Assembly: GCA_036172665.1 (NCBI GenBank)
Contig: CM069875.1
Coordinates: forward strand, 19,189,806 to 19,253,805
Reading direction: 5' to 3'
DNA: 64,000 bases
Source of the DNA: Prosopocoilus inquinatus
Lineage: Eukaryota; Arthropoda; Insecta; Coleoptera; Lucanidae
Shown here: positions 1,770 to 54,238 of the stretch, piece by piece
Layout of the letters: each line of letters starts with the position of its first letter
Numbering within the stretch: position 1 is the first letter of the stretch
Notes under the pieces: generated by a model
Told to the model about the DNA's origin: nothing
Seen by the model: only the letters and a program-made list of their open reading frames with translations
The model's database searches: none
Made by a program: the position numbers and the translations under genes

Positions 1770-3296
1770 CAGTTCTGGACAAAACTGTGGGTTACGGAAA
1801 AGAGTTCTATCGTATTTGAATATATACATAGAATTAAAATATAAACAAAAATAATCAACTGAACAGTTTATTGACAACTAAATATAATATTCTGTCAAAA
1901 AAAGTGCAAAGATAAATGAAAAAACAAGTACTTTATTATAATAACTTAATAATTTCTGAAATAAGAGGTGGACAAAATTATGGATACAATTTCTTTTTTA
2001 AATTGCTATTACATAAATTTTACCAGAATTAATATTTAGTATGTCCTCCCTTGGCTGCAATGACTGCTGAAGGTCGCCGTGGTATGCTGTCAATTAAATT
2101 TCTTATTATTTCTGCTGGAATTTCTTCCCAAGCAGCGATCAGCTTGTTAAAGTAAGATGTGGCATTTGTTACTCCTCGTGAAATTTTGCCGTCTAAGTAA
2201 GCCCACAAGTGTTCAATTGGGTTTAGATCCGAACTTTGAGGCGGCCACTGAAGGACTTTAATGTCATTTTCTTGGAAATAATTCTTAGCAACTCGCGAAG
2301 TATGCTTAGGATCATTGTCCTGTTTGAAAATAAAGTCGTCAAGGTCCATCTTTTCGAACGAAGGATACAAATTTTCTTCCAAAGTTTGTACGTATGACAT
2401 TCGTGTCATCGTACCTTCTATTCTAGCTAAATTGCCTAGACCGTTTTTACTAAAACAACCCCATACAAGAACATTGCCACCTCCAGGTTTAACTGTAGCC
2501 TCTACCATTTTAGAACTTAAGGCTTCTCCTGCTCGCCTCCATACTCTACCTCTTCGTTTTCACCCAAAAAGTTCAAATTTACTTGCATCCGACCACACCA
2601 CTTCTTCGCAATACGCTGGGGGTTTATTTACATATTGTTTTGCATATGCTAATTTTTTTTCCTTAATCCTTCTTTTAATTGTTTTAGTAGAAACGTTTAT
2701 ATTGACACTTTCCCTCACTTGGCGAGCACTTGCACTAGGATTTTTTGTCACTTCCCGCACAATTCGGGCATCATCTCTTGGTGTGGATTTTCTTTTTCGC
2801 CCTCGACCAGCGATATTTTCAGTACTATTAGTGGCTTCAATTTTTTTACAAATACAAACAACAGCGTTTTTTGATAATTTATACTTTTTTGCTAATTGTC
2901 CGTAATTTATACCCACTTTTCGGTCTTCGTGTCTTCGTCGACAATACGTTTTCGAATTTTCAAAGAGATTTCTTTTCTGGGAGCCATGAGAAATTTTTAG
3001 TTTAAAAACGAACTTTCTTAGGATATTTCACTATTAATTATTAACTCTATAAAAATGCCGTTCTTCAGATTAATCCACTAATATTGTGTGCACTAACTAA
3101 AAACATCTATAAAATAAACAAAACAAACCCCATCACTAAGGTATTATTCATTTATGAAATAATACCCAATAAATGTTATTTGCACAGTTTTAAGACGCTG
3201 TTGTCGATTTATGAATGCTGCAGATATAAAGGGATAAACGTTTGCGGGATATAACCAGTAATATAAATGACGTACCCACAATTTCGTCCCCGACTG
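1770..3296 (-). mobile_element. Tc1-family DNA transposon, nearly full length
   Basis: The two ends are inverted copies of a terminal repeat of about 30 bp: CAGTTCTGGACAAAACTGTG at 1770 and, on the other strand from 3296, CAGTCGGGGACGAAATTGTG. Each end abuts a TA dinucleotide (1768-1769 and 3297-3298), the canonical target duplication of Tc1/mariner. The length of about 1.53 kb and a single minus-strand transposase gene are typical. The TIRs differ at several positions and the transposase has disabling changes, so this copy is inactive but not ancient. Confidence 0.88.
2029..2987 (-). pseudogene. Tc1 transposase (DD34E), disabled
   Basis: The start codon at 2987 opens a basic N-terminus (MAPRKEISLKIRKRIV). 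A frameshift near 2916-2925 then moves the reading into the helix-turn-helix region (YGQLAKKYKLSKNAV) and an AT-hook-like GRGRKRK. The catalytic triad is present: D in VVWSDASKF, D in KQDNDPKHTS, and E in DLNPIEHLW, with exactly 34 residues between the second D and the E. An in-frame TGA at 2560-2562 interrupts the ORF just after KFELFG. Reading resumes in the same frame 17 codons later at VKPGGGNVLVWG. So there are only two visible lesions, one frameshift and one nonsense codon. Confidence 0.9.
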
Positions 3297-4816: not shown

Positions 4817-4831
4817 TCAATAGAATTATAG
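4817..4831. repeat. target-site duplication of retrozyme A, left copy
   Basis: TCAATAGAATTATAG here is repeated exactly at 5820-5834 on the other side of the ribozyme array. It is not part of the repeat unit at other loci. Confidence 0.8.
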
Positions 4832-4878
4832 AAAAATTTTGTGCAAATCGTTTTTGATTGCAGCGAGAACCTCGAGCA

Positions 4879-4927
4879 GCCTCTGGACAGCTGTTTCAGC
4901 CCTGCTTGGGGCTTCTTCAGCAGAGAC
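4879..4927 (-). ncRNA. hammerhead ribozyme motif, retrozyme A unit 1
   Basis: Read on the minus strand: stem I 3' strand GTCTCTG, core CTGAAGA (fits CUGANGA), stem II AGCCC/GGGCT closing a 6-nt loop, GAA, stem III ACAGCTGT (self-complementary, no loop), cleavage site GTC, then stem I 5' strand CAGAGGC. Seven stem I pairs form, one of them a G-T wobble. All invariant core bases are present. Confidence 0.85.
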
Positions 4928-5188
4928 GTAGCTCGACATTCCCGCTGCAAACAAAAACGACTTGCCCAATTTATTCGCATTTGCGATGTAAGAGTGATGA
5001 ACAGATAAAATAGCGACATCTTACTATCGCTTTTTGACCTGACATTGCAGTAGGGTAACAAATTGAAGCGGGATTTGCTCCTAATAAGTTCCCCATGCAA
5101 GGCGGCCATGCTTGCTGTCAAAGCATAATGAAAGACTTTAGAAAAATTTCGTGCAAATCGTTTTTGATTGCAGCGAGAACCTCGAGCA

Positions 5189-5237
5189 GCCTCTGGACAG
5201 CTGTTTCAGCCCTGCTTGGGGCTTCTTCAGCAGAGAC
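5189..5237 (-). ncRNA. hammerhead ribozyme motif, retrozyme A unit 2
   Basis: This is an identical copy of the motif at 4879-4927, displaced by exactly one 310-bp unit. It keeps all core and stem bases. Confidence 0.85.
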
Positions 5238-5582
5238 GTAGCTCGACATTCCCGCTGCAAACAAAAACGACTTGCCCAATTTATTCGCATTTGCGATGTA
5301 AGAGTGATGAACAGATAAAATAGCGACATCTTACTATCGCTTTTTGACCTGACATTGCAGTAGGGTAACAAATTGAAGCGGGATTTGCTCCTAATAAGTT
5401 CCCCATGCAAGGCGGCCATGCTTGCTGTCAAAGCATAATGAAAGATTTTAGAAAAATTTTATGCAAATCGTTTTTGATTGCAGCGAGAACCTCGAGCTAT
5501 TTTATCTGTTCATCACTCTTACATCGCAAATGCGAATAAATTGGGCAAGTCGTTTTTGTTTGCAGCGGGAATGTCGAGCTAC

Positions 5583-5631
5583 GTCTCTGCTGAAGAAGCC
5601 CCAAGCAGGGCTGAAACAGCTGTCCAGAGGC
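5583..5631 (+). ncRNA. hammerhead ribozyme motif, retrozyme A inverted unit
   Basis: Plus-strand copy with GTCTCTG, CTGAAGA, AGCCC/GGGCT, GAAA, ACAGCTGT, GTC and CAGAGGC in order. All positions that define the catalytic core are intact. Confidence 0.85.
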
Positions 5632-5819
5632 TGCTCGAGGTTCTCGCTGCAATCAAAAACGATTTGCACAAAATTTTTCTAAAATCTTTCATTATGCTTT
5701 GACAGCAAGCATGGCCGCCTTGCATGGGGAACTTATTAGGAGCAAATCCCGCTTCAATTTGTTACCCTACTGCAATGTCAGGTCAAAAAGCGATAGTAAG
5801 ATGTCGCTATTTTATCTGT

Positions 5820-5834
5820 TCAATAGAATTATAG
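5820..5834. repeat. target-site duplication of retrozyme A, right copy
   Basis: This is an exact copy of 4817-4831. The unit ends directly before it with ...CGCTATTTTATCTGT. Confidence 0.8.
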
Positions 5835-7027: not shown

Positions 7028-9936
7028 CTAGTGTTTTGTATTACTATAGGGATACAATGTTTGGAAAGTATTTGAATCAGGTGGTACCTCATCATCAGAT
7101 TCTGATTCCCCATCTGATTCGAAGGTGTTGTCAGGAATGTCGTATAACCTGATCATAGGCTTGTTTGGATCTTTCATGATCAAATACTTGCCGTCTTTCT
7201 GCTTCATTACAATGTCGACGATGCACCTCAAAATACCCCAGGCATTATCCATATTCAAGTTGATCTGAGTGGCAAATTCATGTGGTTTATACTGTTGGGT
7301 ACCCAGAATTACGTGGCGGCTGTTATCACGAACGTGTGATCGAGATACGTAGCCGAATTTGATCTGATCACTGCCAGCCAGGAGAGCTTGCACAGTCCAT
7401 TTTGCTAGCTTGCAAGCGTTGTTGCGCAGTTCATTTGCAAGAACAGCACCTCTTTGAGTGTCAAGCTTTTGGCGCCATTCTACGCCATTAGCTAACTTTG
7501 AGTCCCACTCATTTAAAGCTTTGATAGTTAAAAATTGAAGCTCGCCACTGGGTGACTGTACTACTGCATCATGTTCACAACGAGCCACCAAAACTATTCC
7601 TCCACCTAAGTCCCATTTGCGATATCTGTATGCAACACTTGCAATTTCGCCATCTTCTTCTTCTGATATGAAGGGATTTGGGCTTTCAAATTTATATTTT
7701 GGTTCACCTGTACCAGTGCGTAATACCTATGAAAAATTAAATTATTCAATTTTTTTATGATTAAGAAAACATTTTTTAATTTAATTTTTAAATTATACTG
7801 AACGAGAGTCGCTAAATCAAAATAAGACGATTTATAAATTGTCTATATCAAATGTGTTTCATTATTCTACTTCGAAATTTTAACAGAAGAATGTTTCAAT
7901 CAATTTGGATATTAGGTATCAAGTCCCAAAAGATTACAGACACATTTACAGATGGTTTCAGTTATCAGCAGTGAACTACTTGTATGAAAAACAGGGCTGC
8001 CACAACACAGAGTAATTTTAACTTATCTATCACATGTAATACTGGTGATACAAAATAAGGGATCCCTACATATAGAGTTTTAGGCTATACATATTTTGAA
8101 TGATGCTTATACACTTTATCAGACACATAAAAAAAAAACTATTTTCTTAAAAAATAAAACGATCAGAAACGTTACAAATGAATAACGAATTTATTATTTT
8201 AATTTTTTTTTTTTATTTTAACGAAGGTACTTCTCTCTTAATTCCAAAAATATGTAGTATGCCTGTATTTGGTTTCATATTTTTTGATTTATGTACTTCA
8301 GTAGACGTTTCTAGATAATTCTATTAACTGACAGTGAAACATCGAGTGCTATTTCCTATTTTAATACTGTCCATTTAAAGTTTAAAAACCATTTATTTCC
8401 AAAAATTAACACATTATGTTGGATAATTAAACTTTAAAGTTCATTTTGTTTTGTTATTTTTTGTTACTTTGTTAGAAGCTGTAAATTTTTTAGACATAAT
8501 CTGTATACGATTTGAAAGGCTCAAGATTGCACTTTCAAACAACAGGTCAGGTTGAAATTTGAAAGTGTTGTAAATACGTTCCCTTAAACGAAAGGTAATT
8601 GCAATATTTTCTTTTAACTACTCCTTAAAAATATTTGTTATTGTAATTTTAACAAATACATTAACAGAGTTAATCATTATTTAAACTTAATCAGTGTTGG
8701 TGTTGGTTTTATGAGTTTTGAAAACTGAAGTTTCTAAAGCTATATTTAAAAAAATAATTATTTCTCAGAATGTCATGATTATATTTTAAATAGTCATAAT
8801 GTGCTCTTCTTTAAGTGGGAGAAATGTTCTTTTTAATGGAGAAATGCACCTCTTAACAGAAAGAAATAAATTTTAAAGAAAAATGCAAGTATGGAACGAC
8901 GGAAATCAGTCACACTTAAAGCATACCATTTCCTATTATTTGAAAATCCATGCTTAATTTATAATTTAGTTTTCTATTCAGTGACTTGGCTAAAACCTAT
9001 TAATCTTACAATATAAGACTAATACTTCTTACTTGTTGACTAAAGTTATGGTTAATGAATGTAGCTTCCAGAGCTAAGTTACGTGGTGAATTCAAAGAGT
9101 TTCCATCATCCTGGGGTGGCTCGACTGAAGTCTCATTTACTGTCAATAGATCAAACTCGGTATTATCACGTTTATCAAAGAACAGTTTGTCACCTGTAAA
9201 ACAACAAAATCTTTGTAAAATTTGTTTTTAATTTTTGAAAATGCAATTCACCAATTTTTTCAATGACAATATCCCAAGAATAATTCGAACGAGTGCAACA
9301 CATTATGGTGGCCAAAATTGCATCAGTTGCATAAACATTGCCCTCAGTTTTGGACAAAACACGAATTATTGGATCATCAGTTGTAGTCACCTAAAACATT
9401 CACAAGAAAAAACAGTGGTACAAATAAACTTGAAGTGAAAGAATTACCGTATGGAAAATGCGATTGACACTCTGCAAAGCTTTCTCATTCTTCACATTAA
9501 CACGATCATAAGATTTATCGTAATATTCTAGTTCGCCACAGCATGTAATATCATCTCCTGAAATATCACTTATAGTGTGTGTGTGTGTTTATATATATAT
9601 ATATATATGTTAATCCGTAGGCTTCCGCGGGTGTTGAATGCTGTAGTATTCTTCCGGGTAGTCCTCTGCGTTGAGTTCTCTAAAGAACTATTTGTCTTCT
9701 GACAACGTTTCGGCAAGATCTCACTTGCCATCATCAGGTCTTCGCTGCTGCTTGCCTGCTTCTGCTCCTCGTCGTTACTCGAGTCACAGTGACTCGAGTA
9801 AAGACGAGGAGCAGAAGCAGGCAAGCAGCAGCGAAGACCTGATGATGGCAAGTGAGATCTTGCCGAAACGTTGTCAGAAGACAAATAGTTCTTTAGAGAA
9901 CTCAACGCGGAGGACTACCCGGAAGAATACTACAGC

Positions 9937-11882: not shown

Positions 11883-12083
11883 GATATTTACATGAACCGA
11901 TAAAATAGCGACATCTTACGATAGCTTTTTGACCTGACATTGCAGTAGGATAGACAAATTGAAGCGGGATTTGCTCCTAATAAGTCTCCCATGCAAGGTG
12001 GCCATGCTTGCTGTCAAAGCATAATGAAAGAATTAGAAAATTTTTATTCAAATCGTTTTTGATTGCAGTGAAAACTTCGAGCA

Positions 12084-12132
12084 GGCTCTGTACAACTGTT
12101 TCAGCACTGCTTGGGGCTTCTTCAGCAGAGAC
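12084..12132 (-). ncRNA. hammerhead motif, retrozyme B, degenerate
   Basis: The core CTGAAGA and stem I strand GTCTCTG remain. Stem II is weakened (AGCAC side), stem III reads ACAGTTGT, and the 5' stem I strand has a mismatch (CAGAGCC). It is probably weak or inactive. Confidence 0.6.
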
Positions 12133-12278
12133 GTAGCTTCAATTTGTTTATCCTACTGCAATGTCAGGTCAAAAAGCGATCGTAAGATGTCGCTATTTTA
12201 TCTGTTCATCACTCTTACATCGCAATTGCGAATAAATTGGGCAAGTCGTTTTTGTTTGCGTTGGGAATGTCGAGCTAC

Positions 12279-12327
12279 GTCTCTGCTGAAGAAGCCCCAA
12301 GCAGGGCTGAAACAGCTGTACAGAGGC
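12279..12327 (+). ncRNA. hammerhead ribozyme motif, retrozyme B
   Basis: GTCTCTG, CTGAAGA, AGCCC/GGGCT, GAAA, ACAGCTGT, then GTA as cleavage site instead of GTC, and CAGAGGC. GTA still satisfies the NUH rule. Confidence 0.8.
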
Positions 12328-12390
12328 TGCTCCAGGTTTTCACTGCAATCAAAAACGATTTGCACAAAAATTTTCTAGATATTTACATGA

Positions 12391-12857: not shown

Positions 12858-12867
12858 ATTATTTTTT

Positions 12868-13082
12868 AAAAAATTTTGTTGCAAATCGTTTTTTATTGCA
12901 GTGAAAACCTCGAGCAGCCTCTGTACAGCTGTTTCAGCCCTGCTTGGGGCTTCGTCAGCAGAGACGTAGCTCGACATTCCCACTACAAACAAAAACGACT
13001 TGTCCAATTTATTCGCAAATGCGATGTAAGAGTGATGAACAGGTCAAAAAGCGATCGTAAGATGTCGCTGTTTTATCTGTTC
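12868..13082. mobile_element. retrozyme-like hammerhead repeat, locus C
   Basis: One minus-oriented partial unit with a hammerhead motif switches orientation at about 13041 (short shared sequence CAG/GTCA) and ends in plus orientation with ...CGCTGTTTTATCTGTTC. A 10-bp direct repeat, ATTATTTTTT, flanks it (12858-12867 and 13083-13092); being T-rich, it is weaker evidence than at the other loci. It is the shortest of the four loci, with the same termini. Confidence 0.75.
12917..12965 (-). ncRNA. hammerhead ribozyme motif, retrozyme C
   Basis: Minus strand: GTCTCTG, core CTGACGA (variable position is C), AGCCC/GGGCT-type stem II with one change at its base, GAAA, ACAGCTGT, cleavage site GTA, CAGAGGC. 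All invariant core bases are kept. Confidence 0.75.
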
Positions 13083-13092
13083 ATTATTTTTT

Positions 13093-23141: not shown

Positions 23142-23495
23142 GTGCGCAGCACGTTGCTTGCACCATCTAGATCTTCCTCAGGCGTATTAGAGGAATCCGA
23201 ACTGGCAACAGTCCGAAATTATTTCATCGTTTCAGAGGGACGTATCCCGTCGTATGCTTTCGGCGAACGTCTTCGCACCAGACATACCTACTGGTATCGT
23301 AACAGATGTTCACGTAAGAACACGTTATGTGCCTAGCACGTTGCTTGCACTATCTGAATCACCCTCAGACGTATCAGAGGTATCAGAACTTACTACCGTA
23401 TGAAACGGTTTCATTTTGTCAGAGGGACATATCCCTTTATATGCTTTCTGCGAACGTTTCGCACCCGGCATATCTTCAACAACGTACCGATCGTT
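23142..23495. repeat. imperfect tandem duplication at the 3' end of element C pol
   Basis: The sequence from GCACGTTGCTTGCACCATCT (23139) through the ACGAGCTTTCGGCGAACG region recurs about 190 bp later from 23337 (GCACGTTGCTTGCACTATCT), with roughly 75-80 percent identity by eye. The second copy includes the stop and last codons of the integrase frame. The first lies between the stop and the 3' LTR and has drifted. Confidence 0.7.
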
Positions 23496-24266
23496 ATCGA
23501 GAACCTTGGTTACAATAAATGGCCCGTGATATCGTGGCTCAAGTTTCCTGCTCTTACCATCTTGTGAGCACTTTGCTCTTTGGACCAACACATGCTGCCC
23601 AACCCTATAACATCGTGGTCTAGCGTGTCTAGCATTATATAGTCGTTTCTGCACGTTTTGCTGATCAACTATATGTTGCGATACATTAGCGCGTACACTA
23701 CTTAGATCCACGGACTCCTCATTGCTTACCTCGATACTGAGGAATGAATCGTTAACCCCCCGGGGCCGGTACCCAAGAAATACTTCGTAAGGTGTCTTAC
23801 CAGTAGCAGAGCTGATAGTCGAGTTAATTCCCCATCTAACCTTACTTATAGCCTCGTCCCATCGCGTTTCGTCCTCCGTTGATGATGTTAACGCCGAAAG
23901 GATAGTGCGATTCATCCTTTCTACTTGACCATTTGCACGGGGAGTAGCAGTCGCACATAATACTCGCTTTATACCTAACTCAGAACAAAAATTAGTAAAT
24001 ATTTCACTCGTGAAAGCGCTTCCCCGATCACAGATCAATCGTCGTGGAACACCAAACGTGTCGATAATGTCAGTTAAAAACTGAATCACAGGTGCTGACT
24101 TTGTAGATGCAACTGCTTTCATAAAAGTAAATTTCGTAAAACCATCTATAGCTACGATTAAATACGCATTCTTCTTGACACTTTTAACAAACGGCCCTAG
24201 ATGATCCAAATGCAGGGTATCCATAGGCACAGTTTTCTTTTCAATGCAGTTCAAGTCACCTGGTCG
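23325..24266 (-). CDS. integrase core and C-terminus of gypsy element C (downstream of the TAA)
   Basis: The frame is the same as the upstream gag-pol ORF. It reads RPGDLNCIEKKTVPMDTLHLDHLGPF, split here by the annotation at the TAA, then the DDE residues: D in DTLHLDHLGP, D in LICDRGSAF, E in NGQVERMNRTI. After the core come KTPYEVFLGYRPRG and a GPFIVTKVLDNDRYVVED segment, the usual C-terminal chromodomain-less end of insect gypsy integrases. The tail is acidic and Ser-rich. An in-frame Met lies at MDTLHL, but translation probably depended on read-through or on the unmutated ancestor. The tail-coding DNA is duplicated downstream (see 23142-23495). Confidence 0.88.
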   Translation of the reverse strand, partial: RPGDLNCIEKKTVPMDTLHLDHLGPFVKSVKKNAYLIVAIDGFTKFTFMKAVASTKSAPVIQFLTDIIDTFGVPRRLICDRGSAFTSEIFTNFCSELGIKRVLCATATPRANGQVERMNRTILSALTSSTEDETRWDEAISKVRWGINSTISSATGKTPYEVFLGYRPRGVNDSFLSIEVSNEESVDLSSVRANVSQHIVDQQNVQKRLYNARHARPRCYRVGQHVLVQRAKCSQDGKSRKLEPRYHGPFIVTKVLDNDRYVVEDMPGAKRSQKAYKGICPSDKMKPFHTVVSSDTSDTSEGDSDSASNVLGT

Positions 24267-27200
24267 TTATCCGGATGGTGTCTTATTATAAAGACACCCC
24301 AAACATGAAGCAATATAATTTCGGACGTAAGTTCTCATTGAAGGAAACCAGTAGCGGTGATTAAGCGCTTCCAATGTTTTATCGACAGCAAAATGTCCCG
24401 CTCCGTCGTGGTAAAACATTAGGAGCCTCCGGCGAGCCGTCTTCGGTACCACCCATCGGAGTCCTTTGTTTGTTTTACGATACAGTCGATTATTTTGTAA
24501 AACATATTCATCGTGTACATTTCGTTCTTGGTCGGTGGTTGCAATTCGGGACAATACTTCGTATAGGTATTTGCAACGTTTGTCGTTAAGTTGTGCCGAA
24601 AGAACCCAATCACTTTCTTCGACGTTAACGAGCATGATTGGAATATCATCGAATCCTTCCGAGCTTTCTACAGGGTTTCTACTAAGTGCATCCACATGGC
24701 TCATCTTCGTTCCCGGACGATACTCGATTGTGAAATCATATTCTTGTGTTGTCAACCACCATCGAGCAATCCTAGGAACCAAATCCCTTTTCGTTAGTGT
24801 GCTTCTCAAAGCGTTGCAATCCGTTACGATTTTGAAAGATTTTCCTATCAAGTACACTCTAAATTTTTGAAGGGAGTTAACCACCGCTAAAGTTTCTAGT
24901 TCATACGAATGATATTTTTGTTCGTCAGTGGTGGTTGCTCTACTGAAATACTGCACCGGTTTTAATTCTTCGTCACGTTGCTCTTGTAGAAGTATACCTC
25001 CTATGCCCCACTTACTCGCATCTGTATGCACCTCGGTTCGAGCGGATGGATCAAATAAAGCTAAAACCGGACGCGTGACCAGCTTTGCTTTAAGCTCATT
25101 AAAAGCTTCTGACTCTTCATTGTCCCATTTGAAACATGCATTCTTTCTAGTTAATTTGGTCAATGGTCTTGCAATCTTCGCAAAATTGTAAATAAATTTT
25201 CGAAAATAGCTGGTAAGTCCTAAAAATTGTCTAACTTCATGTACATTCCTGGGTGGAGGAAATTCATTAACGGCGTTGATTTTGTCCGTCCCCGGTTTAA
25301 TACCATTACCGCTGATTTCATGTCCCAAGTAATGTATTTCACTCCGTAAAAAGTGACATTTATCAAATCTCAAGGTTAAATGAGAATCGCGAAATAGCTT
25401 TAATACCGTGGCTAAATGTGCTAATCCATCCTCAGCAGTCGATGACGGTATGAGGACATCATCGAGGTAAGCCATGGCAGTCGTAAATCGGAGTGATCCA
25501 AGTATTCTGTTCATGGTTCTTTGAAAAATTGCCGGTGCGTTAACTAATCCAAACGGCATTCGTAAGTATTCGTAATGACCGTCCGGGGTCACGAATGCAG
25601 TCTTAGCAATGGAGTCACTAGCGACCGATATCTGATGATAGCCGGACGCCAAATCCAAAGTTGTAAAATATCGACATCCCTTTAATCTATCCAGTAAATC
25701 GTCGATACGGGGAAGGGGATATTTGTCCTTTATAGTTTTACTATTTAATGCTCTATAGTCAACGCACATTCTGAGTTCACCGTTCTTTTTCTTTACCAGC
25801 AGAATTGGGCTGGCGTAGGGCGAAACCGATTCACGTATGATTTGGTTATCGAGTAAATCTTTAACTATACTCTGAACCTTTCCGCGTTCAGAATACGATA
25901 AACGATATGGGCGATAAGTGATAGGTTTATCATCCTGCAAAGATATCGATATTTCACTGCTCGGGCAGTTGCCCAACTCATTTAGTTCATTTGCAAAGCA
26001 ATCACGATATTCATTCAGTAAAGTTAGCAACTTCATCTTAACTTGATCGTCTAATTCATTACCTGATTGATTTTGTATGTCCGAAAATTGAAAACTACGA
26101 ACAGACTTAGATTTAATTTGGAGGCAAGTCAGTACATCATTGGACTCAGCGACACACGTCATTCCTCTCGCAACAACTCTGTCTTTCTTGTATTCTATAG
26201 GGTGATTCGATAAATTCATAACTGGTATCACGCCTCCCGATTCGAGATTTACAACGCATCTTGGAAGTATGTGAAATTGGTCGGGCCAATTTCGATGTTG
26301 CAAATCAACAAATATATTTCCCGGTTCATCGTTACTATAAAGTGATATGTGACCTATGTGCAGGGGAGGGATTACCACCCCTTCTTTTGCCAGTAAAGTT
26401 ATCTTTCTGGAAGGCAGAGACTCGAGTTCAGGCAGCTGCACATCTTGTTTATTAAACAACCTCACTTGGCGATCCCGAACAACTAGAGTCACGTTATCAT
26501 GATTTATAAACGGTTGTCCAACTATTATAGGTACTTGCTGTACATCATCAGGAACGACTAATGCATCGACTTGGGCGAAAGCTAAATCAACATGAAGATC
26601 AACGCGAACTTTCGAAGTAATAGTAACTGAGCCTCCAGCGAAACCGCATAAACGTATACGAACAGGTTCTCGTTTTAGATTCAACTGATTCACAATAGAT
26701 TCGCGCATTGTCACTGCATTACTGCCACAGTCTACGTAACCCCTCAAAGGTATATCGCATATCACGCAATCGATAAAATAACAGTCATTGTTCGAGACAT
26801 TTTCGCTTATATATAAAGAATTCCACTCACCCTCGATAGTCTTGGTGTTTCCAGCCGAGTTCCCGGACTTAGTGCAGTTGGACGTAGCATGACCTAGGAG
26901 ATGGCACTTCTTGCATTCCAAACGGGGCTTGAAACACTTGGCTGCAATGTGACCTCTTTGATGGCAGTTGAAACATTTCACATGTCCATCCTCCCCTCGT
27001 CTGTCCTGCACTCTGCGAGCAATGACGCTTCTCAAATCAGTTCGAGACCCATGCCGAGATATTTTCCCATTATCAGAGGTACCCGAACGTGATGGCATAG
27101 AAGATAAATACTCTTCGAACAAAAGTTCTGGAGTTTCGTATCGCCCAGCTCTAGCACCTTGTTGATCAACAGGATCATTTAGTCCATCGATCAGACAGGC

Positions 27201-27887
27201 CACTGCAAATTTTCCTGTAATTTGGCACGGTCGAAGCAGTTCCATTTTTTTAAAGTAATAAGTGGTCATTGTTTCCGAAGCACGCTTTTTACGATCGAGC
27301 ATTTGTCGCAAGGCCGTGGGATAGTCAACGTGATTAGGAAACGTTTTCTTAATCAGCGCTTTCCATTCGTTCCAGGTATGATTGTAGTCCGTAAGACTGT
27401 GATACCAATTTTTGGCCATCCCTGTCAACCTCGATTGCATATGATACACCGTAGTGATGTCGCTCCAACCATTTATTTCTTTTATTTGATCGACTTTTTG
27501 TAGCCACTGATCTGCGGACAAATTTAAATTGTCGGGAGAAAATTCGGGAATGCAGTCACTTCGCACAGCAAATTGCAAAATTTCTTTTCTGGTATCGGGC
27601 TGCACATTTTGTCTGGACAATATTTCAATCATTCGTTCCAAATGATCTACTCTGTCGTTTACGGATACAGAATTTGTTGATGTTGATTGCGAAGGCGTCT
27701 GCGAACGTCTTTGCAATTCACGACCGCGTACAGGTGAAGAATCTTTTTCTGTGCGATGCCTTTTTTTCTCACGCGTTACTTTTTCCTTGCAGCGTCTGGA
27801 ATGTTTCTTCGTCCGCCTTTTAGCCGAACCCGTTGAGCTTTCCGAATCACTCGAAGCGCGACGTTTATCTTTGCTTCGTTTTACCAT
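24267..27887 (-). CDS. Gag-Pol polyprotein of gypsy element C, ends early at a TAA in integrase
   Basis: 1206 codons from the ATG at 27887. In order: a Lys/Arg/Ser-rich N-terminus, a Gag domain at about 110-240 (WLQKVDQIKEINGWSD, MAKNWYHSL), two CCHC zinc knuckles near 305-338 (CFNCHQRGHIAAKC, CKKCHLLGHATSNC), a retropepsin-like domain with an unusual DCGSN active site near 380, reverse transcriptase with YLRMPFGLVNAPAIFQ and the catalytic YLDD, RNase H (EVHTDASKWGIGGILLQEQ), and the integrase HHCC zinc finger (HDGAGHFAVDKTLEAL...CLGCL). It stops right after NKTPSG. The integrase core continues in the same frame four codons beyond the stop, so the TAA is most simply a nonsense mutation in an otherwise intact polyprotein. 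Confidence 0.94.
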   Translation of the reverse strand: MVKRSKDKRRASSDSESSTGSAKRRTKKHSRRCKEKVTREKKRHRTEKDSSPVRGRELQRRSQTPSQSTSTNSVSVNDRVDHLERMIEILSRQNVQPDTRKEILQFAVRSDCIPEFSPDNLNLSADQWLQKVDQIKEINGWSDITTVYHMQSRLTGMAKNWYHSLTDYNHTWNEWKALIKKTFPNHVDYPTALRQMLDRKKRASETMTTYYFKKMELLRPCQITGKFAVACLIDGLNDPVDQQGARAGRYETPELLFEEYLSSMPSRSGTSDNGKISRHGSRTDLRSVIARRVQDRRGEDGHVKCFNCHQRGHIAAKCFKPRLECKKCHLLGHATSNCTKSGNSAGNTKTIEGEWNSLYISENVSNNDCYFIDCVICDIPLRGYVDCGSNAVTMRESIVNQLNLKREPVRIRLCGFAGGSVTITSKVRVDLHVDLAFAQVDALVVPDDVQQVPIIVGQPFINHDNVTLVVRDRQVRLFNKQDVQLPELESLPSRKITLLAKEGVVIPPLHIGHISLYSNDEPGNIFVDLQHRNWPDQFHILPRCVVNLESGGVIPVMNLSNHPIEYKKDRVVARGMTCVAESNDVLTCLQIKSKSVRSFQFSDIQNQSGNELDDQVKMKLLTLLNEYRDCFANELNELGNCPSSEISISLQDDKPITYRPYRLSYSERGKVQSIVKDLLDNQIIRESVSPYASPILLVKKKNGELRMCVDYRALNSKTIKDKYPLPRIDDLLDRLKGCRYFTTLDLASGYHQISVASDSIAKTAFVTPDGHYEYLRMPFGLVNAPAIFQRTMNRILGSLRFTTAMAYLDDVLIPSSTAEDGLAHLATVLKLFRDSHLTLRFDKCHFLRSEIHYLGHEISGNGIKPGTDKINAVNEFPPPRNVHEVRQFLGLTSYFRKFIYNFAKIARPLTKLTRKNACFKWDNEESEAFNELKAKLVTRPVLALFDPSARTEVHTDASKWGIGGILLQEQRDEELKPVQYFSRATTTDEQKYHSYELETLAVVNSLQKFRVYLIGKSFKIVTDCNALRSTLTKRDLVPRIARWWLTTQEYDFTIEYRPGTKMSHVDALSRNPVESSEGFDDIPIMLVNVEESDWVLSAQLNDKRCKYLYEVLSRIATTDQERNVHDEYVLQNNRLYRKTNKGLRWVVPKTARRRLLMFYHDGAGHFAVDKTLEALNHRYWFPSMRTYVRNYIASCLGCLYNKTPSG

Positions 27888-27954
27888 CGCGTTTTTTTTT
27901 TCACTTAATCAAAATTGTAAGTTATTAACGGCACGTGTCACCCCACACCTGAAC

Positions 27955-30248: not shown

Positions 30249-30510
30249 GTGTTTTTGAGTTCCGGGACGAGCTTTAGTCTTTCCCGAAGATGCATTTGGC
30301 ATGTGTTTTTGAGTTCCGGGACGAGCTTTAGTCTTTCCCGAAGATGCATTTGGCATGTGTTTTTGAGTTCCGGGACGAGCTTTAGTCTTTCCCGAAGATG
30401 CTTTTGGCATGTGTTTTTGAGTTCCGGGACGAGCTTTAGTCTTTCCTGAAGATGCATTTGTTATGCATTGTTGAGTTCCGGGATGAGCTTTAGTCTTTCC
30501 CGATGATGAT
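30249..30510. repeat. 54-bp minisatellite near the 3' LTR of element A
   Basis: GTGTTTTTGAGTTCCGGGAC starts at 30249, 30303, 30357 and 30411, and a fifth, diverged copy begins about 30465. The unit is exactly 54 bp, a multiple of three, so an 18-residue repeat stays in frame on either strand. Related but weaker copies (GATAAGCTTTAG, TTTCCTGATGG) lie at 30165-30240. Confidence 0.9.
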
Positions 30511-30600: not shown

Positions 30601-30817
30601 TGTTAGCGCTTAATTTGAATTTGAAAGTGGCGCGCTCAGGAAGCAACGTTGCTGCTGCCTGTCCGTATCGACGGCGAGGGAGGGAAGCACACACACGGTC
30701 ACTCTCGCTCGCACGATCGTCGGCCTGGGAATCACAGCCGCTTCTTTGTTGTTAATTTTGTATTAATAAACTGTTCCGTTTGTGTTTAATTCGGCTCAAA
30801 TTTTTCTTAAGCTAAAA
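30601..30817 (+). repeat. 3' LTR of gypsy element A
   Basis: 217 bp, identical to 15584-15800 as far as I can see. Its last bases and the ATAT duplication form part of the 11-bp duplication made by retrozyme D. Confidence 0.88.
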
Positions 30818-30873
30818 ATATCTTAGAAAAATTTTGTGCAAATCGTTTTTGATTGCAGTGAGAACCTCGAGCA

Positions 30874-30922
30874 GCCTCTGGACAGCTGTTTCAGCCCTGC
30901 TTGGGGCTTCTTCAGCAGAAAC
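30874..30922 (-). ncRNA. hammerhead ribozyme motif, retrozyme D copy 1
   Basis: Minus strand: GTTTCTG, CTGAAGA, AGCCC/GGGCT, GAAA, ACAGCTGT, GTC, CAGAGGC. Relative to locus A one stem I C-G pair has become a T-G wobble. Confidence 0.84.
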
Positions 30923-30993
30923 GTAGCTCGACATTCCCACTGCAGACCAAAAACGACTTGCCCAATTTATTCGCAAATGCGATGTCGAGCTAC

Positions 30994-31042
30994 GTTTCTG
31001 CTGAAGAAGCCCCAAGCAGGGCTGAAACAGCTGTCCAGAGGC
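30994..31042 (+). ncRNA. hammerhead ribozyme motif, retrozyme D copy 2
   Basis: Plus-strand copy with an intact core. It is joined to copy 1 through a shortened 5' part (TGCGATGTCGAGC). Confidence 0.84.
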
Positions 31043-31127
31043 TGCTCGAGGTTCTCACTGCAATCAAAAACGATTTGCACGAAATTTTTGTGCAAATCGT
31101 TTTTGATTGCAGTGAGAACCTCGAGCA

Positions 31128-31176
31128 GCCTCTGGACAGCTGTTTCAGCCCTGCTTGGGGCTTCTTCAGCAGAAAC
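31128..31176 (-). ncRNA. hammerhead ribozyme motif, retrozyme D copy 3
   Basis: Minus-strand copy, exactly 254 bp from copy 1. Its core is identical. Confidence 0.84.
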
Positions 31177-31247
31177 GTAGCTCGACATTCCCACTGCAGA
31201 CCAAAAACGACTTGCCCAATTTATTCGCAAATGCGATGTCGAGCTAC

Positions 31248-31296
31248 GTTTCTGCTGAAGAAGCCCCAAGCAGGGCTGAAACAGCTGTCCAGAGGC
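31248..31296 (+). ncRNA. hammerhead ribozyme motif, retrozyme D copy 4
   Basis: Plus-strand copy, 254 bp from copy 2. It begins the run of head-to-tail units. Confidence 0.84.
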
Positions 31297-31559
31297 TGCT
31301 CGAGGTTCTCACTGCAATCAAAAACGATTTGCACGAAATTTTTCTAAAATCTTTCATTATGCTTTGACAGCAAGCATGGCCGCCTTGCATGGGGGACTCA
31401 TTAGGAGCAAATCCCGCTTCAATTTGTCTATCCTACTGCAATGTCAGGTCAAAAAGCGATAGTAAGATGTCGCTATTTTATATGTTCATCATTCTTACAT
31501 CGCATTTGCGAATAAATTGGGCAAGTCGTTTTTGGTCTGCAGTGGGAATGTCGAGCTAC

Positions 31560-31608
31560 GTTTCTGCTGAAGAAGCCCCAAGCAGGGCTGAAACAGCTGT
31601 CCAGAGGC
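31560..31608 (+). ncRNA. hammerhead ribozyme motif, retrozyme D copy 5
   Basis: Plus-strand copy 312 bp after copy 4, with an intact core and GTC cleavage site. Confidence 0.84.
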
Positions 31609-31871
31609 TGCTCGAGGTTCTCACTGCAATCAAAAACGATTTGCACAAAATTTTTCTAAAATCTTTCATTATGCTTTGACAGCAAGCATGGCCGCCTTGC
31701 ATGGGGGACTCATTAGGAGCAAATCCCGCTTCAATTTGTCTATCCTACTGCAATGTCAGGTGAAAAAGCGATAGTAAGATGTAGCTATTTTATATGTTCA
31801 TCATTCTTACATCGCATTTGCGAATAAATTGGGCAAGTCGTTTTTGGTCTGCAGTGGGAATGTCGAGCTAC

Positions 31872-31920
31872 GTTTCTGCTGAAGAAGCCCCAAGCAGGGC
31901 TGAAACAGCTGTCCAGAGGC
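31872..31920 (+). ncRNA. hammerhead ribozyme motif, retrozyme D copy 6
   Basis: Plus-strand copy 312 bp after copy 5. The array ends about 195 bp later. Confidence 0.84.
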
Positions 31921-32125
31921 TGCTCGAGGTTCTCACTGCAATCAAAAACGATTTGCACAAAATTTTTCTAAAATCTTTCATTATGCTTTGACAAGCATGG
32001 CCGCCTTGCATGGGGGACTCATTAGGAGCAAATCCCGCTTCAATTTGTATATCCTACTGCAATGTCAGGTCAAAAAGCGATGGTAAGATGTCGCTATTTT
32101 ATATGTTCATCATTCTAAAAATATC

Positions 32126-39000: not shown

Positions 39001-41011
39001 ACGTACAGTCTCTCTGCTCTTTAGTAAAGTCTTCCCTACAAATTTCTTCTGACCATTACAATAGGTAAACAGACAAGAAAATCAGCAAGTAGGTAAGCAA
39101 ATACAAAATAAACACATGAAGTAAAATTCAACGCGTTTGTTTACCTGTTAAATAGCGACCTAAAGTTTTATTGGGGAGATATTATTTCTAATTATGACTG
39201 TACATGCAACTAGCCCCGGTTAAAACTTTCACCCCTAATATCTTTGTTACTTATCGATGAATTTCCTTTGTTATTAATTGATAGAGCTTACTAAAATTTG
39301 GCAGGGTACCTTCAATAAAAACTAAATATTCGTTTAGTATCATCAAACACCATTAAGAACATGAACATCGGTAAGAGCACCGAATTTATGGCTTCTCTTT
39401 ACTAGTGTTGACTGGGACACATTGTATATTTTTTCCTTTACTACAATACTTGCATTTAACGAGCAGTAACTACTTGCATAAGCTTTTACATCACATCGTC
39501 ATACAAATTATTTCAATAATTAACACGAAATTATCTTAATTTTCAGCTTTTGAGATATTCCAATTTAGACATTTGAATGAGTAGAACAGATTCAGGGAGG
39601 TCTAACTTAAGAAATTAATTTTTTATTTTTATGAGAAGAATAAATTCTAATAATTTGATCGCTTATTTTAAAATACCCTACATTTGATTATTTCATTAGT
39701 TTCGATAACGTGTATTTTAATTAGCGTTAAAAATAAGCATACACAAACATTTGCAAAATATTGAAACATATTGCGTACTGGGTTCAAATAATACTGCAAA
39801 TAATCTTATTATTTCTACTTGAAACTTAGTATACCAACAGAAAAACGATCGAATTTTTAAGACTTCAAGTTCAACCTTAACTGAAAAATAAAAATCATGT
39901 TATTTCTTTGAAAAGTAATATTAAAGATTACAAGTATTTATTAAAATATTTACTAATTGCTAAACAAAACACTACTGAAATTTTACGATAATCGAAAATT
40001 GCTCATGTTACTCTTAAAAAAAACAAAATGATATTTTATTGACTGATATTTAGAAATTTAAAATGTATTAACAAGTATTATGCATTGTGATGAATTAATA
40101 AAATCATATTATTATTATTACAACAATAATAAGAAATCTGTAAAATACAGTACCATAATAATACTTTGTAACTACAAAACAATAAATAATAAAGTTATAG
40201 CATAAAACACACATGCAACAAATAAAGTAATAACTTTCTGAAGGCTTTTTATGTAAAGAAAAATAAAAATATGTGAATAAATGAGATAAATTTATATTAT
40301 CACAAGATGTATATAACTGCTGCTATATTCTTCTAACAATTCACAGCATAGCAGATTTGCCCTTTGTAAAAGTGAATACCAAATATTAACTATAATTTTG
40401 TTCAGTTGTTAAAAGATATTTATTTGCTTTTATCACGAACAAGAATATTTCTGACAAATAAACAATTAGGTACGTAAATATTTTGAAATGCTCTACACAA
40501 AAGCGAATAATAAATTTTGGTAGAAGACTCTTGTCCACTGAAAATTGTCTGTTTAATTTTGCTTCATTTTTAAATGCTGTTTATAAATATCATGAACAAG
40601 AAGATTCTTAAAGATTATATTGAAAATCATAGTAAAATATCAAAGAGTATAATAAGAAGTTAAGTTCAAGATAAAATGGGAAAAAAATTGTAATAAAAAA
40701 ATAAACAAATTTTTACTTGCTATCAAGTTTGCCATGGTCCCAGAGGGAATAAAGACAGCAGCTTCTTTCTGCAGGAGTTCGCAAGATTTCATTTCCAGCA
40801 TTCTAACAGTTGGATCTTCCCCATAGACATCATCCCCAACAGGTGCAACGTACATAGCATCCCTCATTTCTTGGGTCGGTTTGCTAACGGTATCACTGCG
40901 TAAATCGACCACATGGATGTCGCCGCATCCATTGGTATGTCCATTGAGACTGCCGTTGATAATTTCGTAAGGCATTTTCACCACAAGTTGCTCCTGAAGT
41001 AAGACTGACAT
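33042..41011 (-). CDS. L-threonine aldolase (PLP-dependent, low-specificity type)
   Basis: Six coding exons on the minus strand, all with GT-AG borders and matching phase: 41011 (or 40975)-40717, 38043-37969, 35289-35120, 33807-33587, 33530-33394 and 33337-33042. The product is 385 aa from the Met at 40975 or 397 aa from the Met at 41011, the usual size for the family. Recognised blocks: [82 protein letters not shown], and [11 protein letters not shown] (Asp for the PLP ring nitrogen). [12 protein letters not shown] supplies the Schiff-base Lys. The enzyme splits threonine and allo-threonine to glycine and acetaldehyde in the cytosol. Introns 1-3 are long (about 2.7, 2.7 and 1.3 kb). A possible TATA box, TATAAATAT, lies just upstream of the first Met. 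The two in-frame Mets cannot be separated here. Confidence 0.93.
33808..35119. other. intron 3 of threonine aldolase
   Basis: 1.3 kb, AT-rich. Nothing recognised. Confidence 0.7.
35290..37968. other. intron 2 of threonine aldolase
   Basis: 2.7 kb. Between about 36300 and 37020 the composition is less AT-rich and includes CGAGCCGGGAGTGTCGG, possibly an old element, but no ends or coding motifs were found. Confidence 0.65.
38044..40716. other. intron 1 of threonine aldolase
   Basis: 2.7 kb, strongly AT-rich. No gene, RNA or element was recognised. Confidence 0.7.
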
Positions 41012-41391
41012 GCTTCTTTCCACCACACATATTTATAGGACGCGCCCCCATACGTAATCGTCTGATCTGTATACAAAAAAAGATGCAAGGTCACTCTTGC
41101 AAATAATATTAAATCCGAACGATATCTAAGTCCCCCCGCAGCGCGCATATTTCCAACCATCTCGTTTAGGTTAGATTACAGAAGTGTCAAATGAACTTTA
41201 AATCAATATCAACAACCGCAGCCAACTTCAGGTAACGAAAGCAACTACAATGTAGGGAATTTCATTGAAAATCATCTTTATTACTCGTGCCAGTGTGCTA
41301 ATTTGTCATGTTAGCAGTAATTTTTCACGTTTACTGAAGACAAAATGCATCATTCTCGTTAATTATAATAATTTTAACCTGTCGTGAAAAA
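41012..41391. promoter_or_regulatory. shared upstream region of two head-to-head genes
   Basis: 380 bp separate the aldolase start (minus) and the FAM104-like start (plus). The minus strand contains TATAAATAT close to the aldolase start. No TATA box was noted on the plus side. That it acts as a bidirectional promoter is inferred only from the arrangement. Confidence 0.5.
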
Positions 41392-45120: not shown

Positions 45121-47481
45121 CCAAAGATAAAGGATCTAGGAAGATGTGACACTTAATAAAATAAAAATGGAACGAAGTTTAGTTTGCAAAAGTGGCTCCA
45201 CCTGGATTTTGGGCACAGCAAAGGCGGAAGTTTTAAACTTTACTGCTTTAAATAAATACTTATTTGACAAGTTATAAAGCAATAATATGCGTTTTAAATA
45301 TTCATACTGTAAGACTACGGTTCAAATCAAATGCGAAATTGAATCAATATTTATTTCTTTTGTTTATTTGTCACAGAATAGCAATATTATATGACTAACT
45401 AGCTGGATTATGTAAATGAACCACTGAAGTATTTTTCCGAAATCAGAATTTCATAGACCGATTACTTTAATCATTATGTAATGTACTGGCCGGTTCAACC
45501 ATTATACAACAACTTCACCTGCTTCTAATATCGCTAATGAATACTGTTCTTTGTATAAATGTGCTCCTCTAGGCTAACCTTCGCTTTACACAGGAAACGC
45601 CATTTCGGTAATCAATGTAAGTCAATCAACTTTCAGCAGTAACTAAAGTCAGGCTTCCATGGTGGTAACCGTGAATCAACTAGTTTACGTTCAGAAACGC
45701 ACAAACCTCCACGTTCTGCAGGGTCAACTTAGAAAATAACTATCATTAGCATTCCCCGGCTAGGATAACCATAGCCCGCTGTAGGTAGTGCAATGGAACC
45801 AAGGGAAAACGCACGAGGTTCCCTCCTCACAGTCTACTGGGGGAAAACGCACCCAGTAGGTTTCAGGAATCTAATCATAAACTTGTAAAACAGACTAGCA
45901 TTCCCCGGCAAGGATAACCATAGCCCGCTGTAGGTAGTGCAATGGAACCAAGGGAAAACGCACGAGGTTCCCTCCTCACAGTCTACTGGGGGAAAACGCA
46001 CCCAGTAGGTTTCAGGAATCTAATCATAAACTTGTAAAACAGACTAGCATTCCCCGGCTAGGATAACCATAGCCCGCTGTAGGTAGTGCAATGGAACCAA
46101 GGGAAAACGCACGAGGTTCCCTCCTCACAGTCTACTGGGGGAAAACGCACCCAGTAGGTTTCAGGAATCTAATCATAAACTTGTAAAACAAACTAGCATT
46201 CCCCGGCTAGGATAACCATAGCCCGCTGTAGGTAGTGCAATGGAACCAAGGGAAAACGCACGAGGTTCCCTCCTCACAGTCTACTGGGGGAAAACGCACC
46301 CAGTAGGTTTCAGGAATGCCACGCAACGACCCGCCCGCATAACGTGGATTAGCAAACAGTTAACTGGTATCAGTCAACGACTGCACCGACTTTTTAACCA
46401 TCTGATTGATAAATTGTTACCAGCTGTTCATTCAGCGATATTAGCAGTGTAAAATCGTTAGACTCTATGTAAATAATGAACCCCACACTAACCTGGATTC
46501 TAATTTCTCGACCGGTGCACTTCACAAGCTCACACCACCGATGCTAACATTACACTGACTTACGATCCCTTACTTTTATTTTCCTTTATCTTGCCACTTA
46601 CATAACTGACAATTTATAACGAGTTTTGGGCTAAATTTTCTTGAGCGGTGAATCATTTTAAGACAGGGACAATGTCGCTCTAATTGCACAACGGATGTAC
46701 TGAAGTTATTTCTGATTAAATAATCCCAACACCCAAAATATTTAGTGTAAACAAAGGAAAATAAACTTTAACGAAAGAGAAACTTTATGTAACTCCACAA
46801 TACTTTATTTCAAACTAAGAAATTGACAGATACAAAAACGAGAAGCAAATTTCGGGACGATTCGCCTTGATAATCACACTTTAAACGATTCCTTGTCTTT
46901 TATATTTGTTGTTGCTGCAACAATCACTGAACAGTGAATTTTCTTGGACCTGAATATTTATATGCAGCTACGATGTTAATCGAAATATCGGCCGGTATCT
47001 CTGAATTGTCATTAATTTTTCACCATTGTCTCCATTTACAATAAAACGTATTGTTTTCTCTGTTCCTTTCCCTTTTTTTAAAAGTATCACAGTCACTGCG
47101 TACTTTTAATAGAAGTAAAATATTTTTATCTGAGTCCGGGCACGTTAACAGTTTTTCGGTGCAGCGATACCCGATACAAATTTTACGAATTTCACCAACA
47201 GGCTGTACAGCAAATTATGAAAACAAACTAAACACGAAATGCACTAAAAGCATTTATAAAAATGCATATAAAAACGGTGGAAATATTCAGGTTAAACATA
47301 AGTTATGACAGAAACGTAAATGTCATTAAATTTTTTCGTAGTTTTGTTTCAATCAAACATGGAATTATTTGATTGGTTGTTAGTAAAACACTAGCGCCAG
47401 CTAGGTTTTTGGCGAAGAAATGAATTCGGTACAGTGTTCCTAGATTCAAGTGCCGAATCTTCTTAGATCCTTTATCTTTGG
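45121..47481. mobile_element. non-autonomous TIR element Y, 2.36 kb
   Basis: Terminal inverted repeats of about 33 bp: CCAAAGATAAAGGATCTAGG at 45121 and, on the minus strand from 47481, CCAAAGATAAAGGATCTAAG. The flanks TCCGAC (45115-45120) and TCCAAC (47482-47487) suggest a 6-8 bp target duplication; the exact length is ambiguous because of neighbouring C residues. No transposase frame is present. It contains the 149-bp tandem array. Confidence 0.75.
45748..46317. repeat. 149-bp tandem repeat, 3.8 copies, inside element Y
   Basis: AGCATTCCCCGGCTAGGATA starts at 45748, 45897, 46046 and 46195. The copies differ at only one or two bases each. The unit contains the internal direct repeats GGGAAAACGCACGAGG and GGGAAAACGCACCCAG. 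The fourth copy stops after TTTCAGGAAT. Confidence 0.95.
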
Positions 47482-53967: not shown

Positions 53968-54238
53968 GATTAATTTAACACGTTAAAAACACTGTTTCGT
54001 GCAAAACCTGCCTTATACAAACTATGAATGGATAATTAGGAACGCACTTACGTTGTTTGTCGTAGTTGCTGTCCGATTTCTGATTGTTTGCTTGATTGCT
54101 TCTTTTTTGATTGCTGATGAGCTTTCCGAAACTGTCTTTCGCATCGATGACCAGTGTGGCTGCGATGAATTCACTTTCGGATGAGGCTCATTTGAAGGAT
54201 CAATGCAGCTGCGATTAATTGACTTGTGTATCCGGCTC

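Follow-up and report, generated by a model that had tools for sequence, protein, structure and literature searches.

The 64-kb window of Prosopocoilus inquinatus DNA analysed here (the whole stretch, 64,000 nt) contains four insertions of a hammerhead-bearing repeat unit of 310–312 nt, and all four (4/4) consist of a head-to-head inverted pair of arms lying within their own exact target duplication of 10–15 bp (Table 1). In every insertion both outer ends are 3′ ends in the RNA sense, and they recur at two points of the unit, ∼310 at the end termed L and ∼144–151 at the end termed R; the inner ends are scattered. The sequence features support assignment of the elements to a family of animal non-LTR retrozymes, which is a published class. 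We propose that the insertions probably arise from hammerhead-cut circles or multimers that are copied from two primers, at fixed sites, by the enzyme of another element, with inverted pairs as the product. Self-cleavage, circularity, two-primer synthesis and a Penelope-like enzyme are the parts of this explanation that we infer; together they would account best for the anatomy described below.

Table 1. Coordinates of the four insertions (A–D) and of their hammerhead motifs. Positions are those of the window; unit numbering is based on window 4832-5141, minus strand.
Feature	Position	Strand	Remarks
Insertion A target duplication, left, TCAATAGAATTATAG	4817..4831	+	15 bp exact
Insertion A L arm	4832..5497	-	2.15 units, 666 nt; outer end ∼310, inner end 265
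Insertion A R arm	5496..5819	+	unit 128-310, then 1-141; to 144 with bases common to the target duplication (327 nt)
Insertion A target duplication, right	5820..5834	+	15 bp exact
Insertion B target duplication, left, GATATTTACATGA	11883..11895	+	13 bp exact
Insertion B R arm	11896..12138	-	unit 209-310, then 1-141/145
Insertion B L arm	12136..12377	+	unit 73 to ∼310
Insertion B target duplication, right	12378..12390	+	13 bp exact
Insertion C target duplication, left, ATTATTTTTT	12858..12867	+	10 bp exact
Insertion C L arm	12868..13042	-	outer end ∼310, back to ∼126; inner-junction overlap CAG at 13040-13042
Insertion C R arm	13040..13082	+	unit 101 to ∼145
Insertion C target duplication, right	13083..13092	+	10 bp exact
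Insertion D target duplication, left, CTAAAAATATC	30812..30822	+	11 bp exact
Insertion D L arm	30823..30985	-	outer end ∼310, back to 153; hammerhead 30874-30922
Insertion D tandem duplication, 254 bp, of the L-arm/R-arm junction	30828..31343	.	holds 30994-31042 (+), 31128-31176 (-), 31248-31296 (+)
Insertion D R arm	31236..32114	+	unit 203-310, two full 312-nt units, then 1 to ∼151 (∼880 nt); hammerheads 31248-31296, 31560-31608, 31872-31920
Insertion D target duplication, right	32115..32125	+	11 bp exact
Hammerhead motif, insertion A	4879-4927	-	GUC site
Hammerhead motif, insertion A	5189-5237	-	GUC site; 310 nt from the 4879-4927 copy, same strand
Hammerhead motif, insertion A	5583-5631	+	GUC site; Rfam Hammerhead_1 match 5584-5630, below gathering
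Degenerate hammerhead copy, insertion B	12084-12132	-	fails structural descriptor
Hammerhead motif, insertion B	12279-12327	+	GUA site
Hammerhead motif, insertion C	12917-12965	-	GUA site
Hammerhead motifs, insertion D, minus strand	30874-30922, 31128-31176	-	GUC sites
Hammerhead motifs, insertion D, plus strand	30994-31042, 31248-31296, 31560-31608, 31872-31920	+	GUC sites

An ungapped scan and blastn located 12 copies of a 49-nt hammerhead motif in the 64-kb window, six per strand and all within the four insertions, which confirms the twelve copies at four loci reported in the initial annotation. Read from its sequence, the motif is a type I hammerhead with three helices that is open at stem I. 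Its core is CUGAAGA (CUGACGA in insertion C), and stem I is formed by GUCUCUG/CAGAGGC, in which a C-to-U change in D retains a U-G pair. Stem II is AGCCC/GGGCU with the loop CAAGCA, followed by GAA. The stretch after GAA, ACAGCUGU, comprises two pairs and an AGCU loop, which is a realistic form of stem III and replaces the one originally drawn, and it is followed by the cleavage triplet, GUC in nine copies (loci A and D) and GUA in three (B and C). The cut is predicted directly 5′ of CAGAGGC, after GUC/GUA; the hammerhead occupies unit positions 215–263 and cleavage is predicted after unit position 256.

A structural descriptor (CUGANGA core, stem II with 4 bp, GAA, A15.1-U16.1, NUH, 5 bp of stem I, and a stem III of 3–5 bp with a loop of 0–8 nt, so that a loopless stem III is permitted) matched 11 of the 12 motif copies and no other site in the 64-kb window, and it gave no match on either strand of 400 random 64-kb windows generated with a first-order Markov model. 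The copy that fails, on the minus strand of insertion B, is 4 of 49 letters off the reference and has lost one stem II pair. The initial annotation would have been refuted by the absence of any hammerhead covariance hit, and such a hit was obtained. In a 131-nt search the Rfam model Hammerhead_1 aligned end to end (1–45 of 45; 25.8 bits, E 1.2e-4), but nothing in the whole window reached gathering, the score for Hammerhead_1 being 25.8 bits against a gathering score of 34, which is a curation threshold and not a structural feature. When 2 kb were searched, Hammerhead_HH9 was the sole hammerhead model to appear (16.3 bits, E 1.4). Matches of the unit to microRNA families (MIR851, MIR397, MIR3627 and others), some of which outscore the hammerhead models, reach gathering in no case and were discarded as reflecting a long hairpin. 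The hammerhead core, searched as an exact and as a looser pattern, gave no match in viral and genome contig collections, as expected for an animal element; the window's own genome records may lie outside these collections.

Motifs on the same strand are spaced by 310 nt in A and by 312 nt in D, besides the 254-bp tandem duplication in D, and insertions B and C each contain less than two units. The GC content of the unit is 44.5% and 43.6%, in both cases <50%, and that of the window is 36%. The unit is non-coding at the ORF length examined: a Pfam scan of seven stop-to-stop ORFs of at least 100 amino acids in or overlapping insertions A, B and D gave none above the cut-off (best E 0.014), and no LTR was seen in the insertion anatomy. 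In the predicted fold, stem I continues into a hairpin of ∼130 nt (unit 173–303). The circular minimum free energy of the first unit of insertion A (A1) is −119.9 kcal/mol, compared with −75.7 (s.d. 4.8) for 200 dinucleotide shuffles and −94.4 kcal/mol for its antisense. An alignment of 8 of the 12 copies (7 distinct rows), from which the degenerate B copy and three D copies of the duplicated stretch were omitted, has 98.2% of 327 cells in 47 pairs of the long hairpin paired, a figure that the omission of the degenerate copy favours. One pair is altered on both sides, being C-G in A and U-A in B, C and D. Shuffles matched the real alignment in 14 of 500 cases for pairing percentage and covariation score, equalled its number of double-changed pairs in 456 of 500, and its number of pair types in 500 of 500. 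Since most pairs are invariant, support for the hairpin pairing is modest, and structural selection on the long hairpin is only hinted at by the sequences.

According to the initial annotation, the units were tandem copies spaced by 310–312 bp and flanked by target site duplications. The spacing (310 in A, 312 in D) and the duplications, which are exact and 15, 13, 10 and 11 bp long in A to D, were borne out. All loci are, however, inverted head-to-head composites and not plain tandem arrays, and the inversion and the two fixed ends had been missed. A 10-mer or longer common to a random pair of 20-nt windows arose in 0.06% of 20,000 draws, the weakest of the four duplications being the 10-bp one of C, which consists of A and T only. 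Insertion B is flipped relative to A, and in the orientation of A its duplication reads TCATGTAAATATC. As the four target duplications all differ, the insertions were separate events, even though B and C have subfamily letters in common. The 254-bp duplication in D places hammerheads 254 nt apart on both strands and could free a 254-nt snap-back RNA from either strand. It is scarcely credible that the loci are ordinary satellite DNA which recombination turned into inverted arrays and whose hammerhead is there by chance or as a relic. Such an origin would suit short tandem repeats like these units, and animal satellites are known to contain hammerheads (PMC2837043), but four dispersed insertions with differing exact target duplications and conserved ends speak against it, as does the fit of 11 of 12 copies to the hammerhead descriptor.

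The exact match to the unit extends to 313, 309, 310 and 316 at the L end and to 144, 145, 145 and 152 at the R end (A, B, C and D, with the values for D in its own 312-nt numbering). In a simulation with uniformly placed ends (n=4), an outer-end span of ≤7 nt at L has P 4.8e-5 and one of ≤10 nt at R has P 1.5e-4; the corresponding values for the inner ends, P 0.87 and 0.17, are those of scattered positions. The L and R sites lie 145 or 165 nt apart round the circle. Microhomology amounts to 2, 3, 4 and 3 nt at the inner junctions (P 0.0014) and to 3, 4, 2 and 2 nt at the R end (P 0.002), and is weak at the L end (3 nt in A, 0 in B, 0–1 in C and 0 in D). An argument from the accessibility of the start sites was abandoned as inconsistent: predicted unpairedness is favourable in units A1 and A2, middling in D1 and absent in D2.

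The same retrozyme family could instead be moved by a LINE enzyme through ordinary twin priming, in which synthesis of one cDNA begins at the 3′ end of the RNA and that of a second begins anywhere through microhomology, giving 5′ inversions. Twin priming of L1 gives rise to inverted pairs, target duplications of about the size seen here and junction microhomology, and the inverted pairs, the duplication sizes and the 2–4 nt of microhomology at the inner junctions match these products. Inversion affects only a minority of L1 insertions, in contrast to the four of four found here, and the position of the second start is no less constant than that of the first. Furthermore, no poly(A) and no simple-repeat tail is present at the outer ends on either side. 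We therefore regard LINE twin priming as unlikely, although 15-bp LINE-like duplications are reported for Nematostella retrozymes (PMC4918200).

Alternatively, the growing strand could fold back on itself or on a neighbour and be copied the other way, forming the inverted junction by self-priming, which is how head-to-head Penelope copies with junction palindromes have been interpreted (PMC3846280). The 2–4 nt of microhomology at all four inner junctions could prime such a fold-back. Nevertheless, a simple fold-back predicts mirrored arms, and the inner ends of the two arms differ in each insertion (265/128 in A, 73/209 in B, 126/101 in C and 153/203 in D), arm lengths are unequal (666 versus 327 nt in A), and the fixed point at which an arm ends on the outside is not the same for the two arms. 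Self-priming is very unlikely to have made these insertions, and alone it would leave the fixed end of the second arm unexplained.

The arms are up to 2.8 units long, and at 666 nt in A and ∼880 nt in D they are longer than one unit and run across the cleavage site, so the RNA that was copied must have been a circle or a multimer. Within A, one pass of the unit departs from the next at positions 6, 301 and 302 (window 5136, 5461 and 5150), each of them next to the L start site; the A-to-G variant CACAAAA/CACGAAA at unit position 302 also distinguishes passes within D (31081, 31335). The pass differences in A argue against a single circle that was read repeatedly; they would be accounted for by a template of several units, by a switch of template, by editing or by copying errors where synthesis starts. 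Editing as the source of the A-to-G differences was not retained, the cases being too few. The pass differences would also suit the priming of two linear RNA 3′ ends, one after the T run at unit 306–310, possibly a pol III terminator, and the other near 145, for which no circle would be needed and the hammerhead would be incidental. A T run of 4–5 does adjoin the L end, and the Penelope protein of Anolis (PAc) takes unprocessed RNA, the hammerhead being dispensable in vitro (PMC11167929). We consider linear ends rather unlikely, however, since the R end has no T run, and copying continued past the T run in the arms of A, B and D and also past the cleavage site, as expected of multimer or circle templates.

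In the mechanism that we favour, two-primer copying of hammerhead-processed RNA, the type I hammerhead would cleave a transcript spanning two tandem units behind GUC/GUA and so release 310-nt monomers, whose circularization by a host ligase is inferred from PMC7229834. Two of the insertions could release monomers themselves: A, with cuts 310 nt apart on the minus strand, and D, where cuts 312 nt apart occur twice on the plus strand. B and C each have a single descriptor-fitting motif and could not. A reverse transcriptase/endonuclease from another element would cut both strands of the target 10–15 bp apart, and each of the two target 3′ ends would prime on the RNA at a site of its own, ∼310 or ∼144–151 of the unit. 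The two cDNAs would then extend round the circle or along the multimer for variable lengths and be joined head-to-head through 2–4 nt of microhomology, so that target duplications enclose an inverted pair. Two cDNAs primed by the two target strands would be expected to leave such head-to-head arms within target duplications.

The best candidate for the enzyme is one of the Penelope type, on the grounds of inverted copies in Adineta vaga and the two-strand, two-site activity of the Anolis protein. In A. vaga, several Penelope copies have inverted pLTRs arranged head-to-head, with target duplications of 8–10 bp and a 31-bp tail that is optional at one end; in some families the pLTRs are all direct, and target duplications are missing from some copies, and the inverted copies were attributed by the authors to self-priming on an antisense template and not to two-primer synthesis (PMC3846280). 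Purified PAc cleaves both strands of the target, extends both, and begins synthesis at two sites inside the RNA (PMC11167929). The signature of Penelope-type insertion, inverted head-to-head arms with short target duplications, is present in 4/4 insertions (n=4). Penelope-like elements have been put forward as strong candidates for the target-primed copying of retrozyme circles into tandem cDNA, with shared hammerheads, tandem copies and co-existence as the argument (PMC7229834). The anatomy described here supports that proposal by analogy, with n=4 and an incomplete fit. No Penelope domain was found in the 25 ORFs scanned with Pfam (51 stop-to-stop ORFs of at least 100 amino acids were listed in the window), and no reverse transcriptase with a GIY-YIG endonuclease was found in the seven ORFs of insertions A, B and D, the units being only ∼310 nt long. 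More tentatively, and with somewhat less than even confidence, we suggest a symmetric two-primer reaction in which a dimeric Penelope-type enzyme grips the RNA at two fixed sites flanking the hammerhead hairpin and each cut strand primes at its own site, so that head-to-head inversion would be the normal product of animal retrozymes. Insertion anatomy is an independent test of which enzyme moves animal retrozymes: two fixed starts and inverted arms can be counted in any retrozyme-bearing genome, and the purified Penelope protein (PMC11167929) allows a trial in vitro.

Other repeats and genes lie in the same window. A Gypsy-like element (23325-27908, minus) has gag, protease, reverse transcriptase and RNaseH together with an integrase ORF, and a BEL/Pao-like polyprotein lies at 49585-53982 (minus); both have long open frames and are possibly young insertions. 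The closest named relative of the latter among the best 120 of 418 matches is from the beetle Trypoxylus dichotomus (62% over 30% of the query). Remains of a Tc1-like transposase (2029-3027, minus) comprise two open frames with DDE_3 and HTH_Tnp_Tc3_2. Two host exons were recognized on the minus strand, one of the beta-eliminating lyase family (40640-41032) and one for the C-terminal part of eIF3 subunit D (7028-7591). Among the best 120 of 667 matches to the eIF3d exon, with full-length proteins left out, there are relatives from arthropods, with unnamed proteins at up to 97% and, among the named ones, Penaeus monodon at 85% over two thirds of the query. A 54-bp tandem repeat of 4.8 copies (30249-30508) lies just upstream of insertion D, amid open frames. 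A 149-bp tandem repeat of 3.8 copies (45747-46317) has no Rfam match up to E 5, and each copy contains two hairpins, GGAACC..GGTTCC and CTACTGGG..CCAGTAG, which have the inner stretch GGGAAAACGCAC in common.

The initial reading of the elements as retrozymes is upheld by comparison with the animal non-LTR retrozymes of Cervera and de la Pena (2020; PMC7229834), insects being among the listed hosts. Tandem units in the range of ∼150–450 bp with a type I hammerhead (A and D), a GC content <50% and target duplications >4 bp are all found here. The likeness extends to a stem III of two base pairs and a tetraloop, to non-coding tandem units (170–400 nt there, 310 nt here) and to strong self-pairing. 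What sets the present elements apart is that each of the four insertions is inverted and has two fixed ends; the main text of PMC7229834 uses none of the words inverted, inversion, twin or head-to-head. Inverted retrozymes were likewise absent from passages of PMC4918200, PMC7761336 and PMC11722881, and from the titles and abstract openings of the retrozyme and Penelope literature searched, a body of text that leaves most subscription papers outside. The class is thus already known, and the literature searched contained no instance of insertion as inverted pairs with two fixed sites, four insertions being a small sample. Plant LTR retrozymes are similarly non-autonomous and hammerhead-bearing, with a proposed circular RNA template, but have type III hammerheads, LTRs, PBS and PPT and 4-bp duplications (PMC4918200), in contrast to the type I hammerhead and 10–15 bp duplications found here.

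Among other animal repeats, the W-elements of Schistosoma mansoni are satellite-like, some with functional hammerheads, and have target duplications and intra-element inverted repeats; these inverted repeats flank miRNA- or snoRNA-like parts, however, and fixed outer ends or head-to-head unit pairs are not among the features described in passages of PMC8490949. The pDo500 repeat of Dolichopoda cave crickets also places a hammerhead in an insect repeat but is described as satellite DNA (PMC2837043), unlike the dispersed insertions with target duplications reported here. Elements of the Penelope/Poseidon type resemble the present ones in their head-to-head inverted terminal repeats and short (8–10 bp) target duplications, in two fixed internal start sites of reverse transcription with use of both target strands, in a hammerhead upstream of the start sites, and in AT-rich targets; they differ in that the element described here has no ORF and carries a complete hammerhead instead of a minimal variant. 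Finally, the two start sites of PAc are 30–40 nt apart with no strand difference in their use, and it starts without homology to the cut DNA (PMC11167929), whereas the sites here are 145–165 nt apart, each side has its own site, and the R end has short homology to the target.
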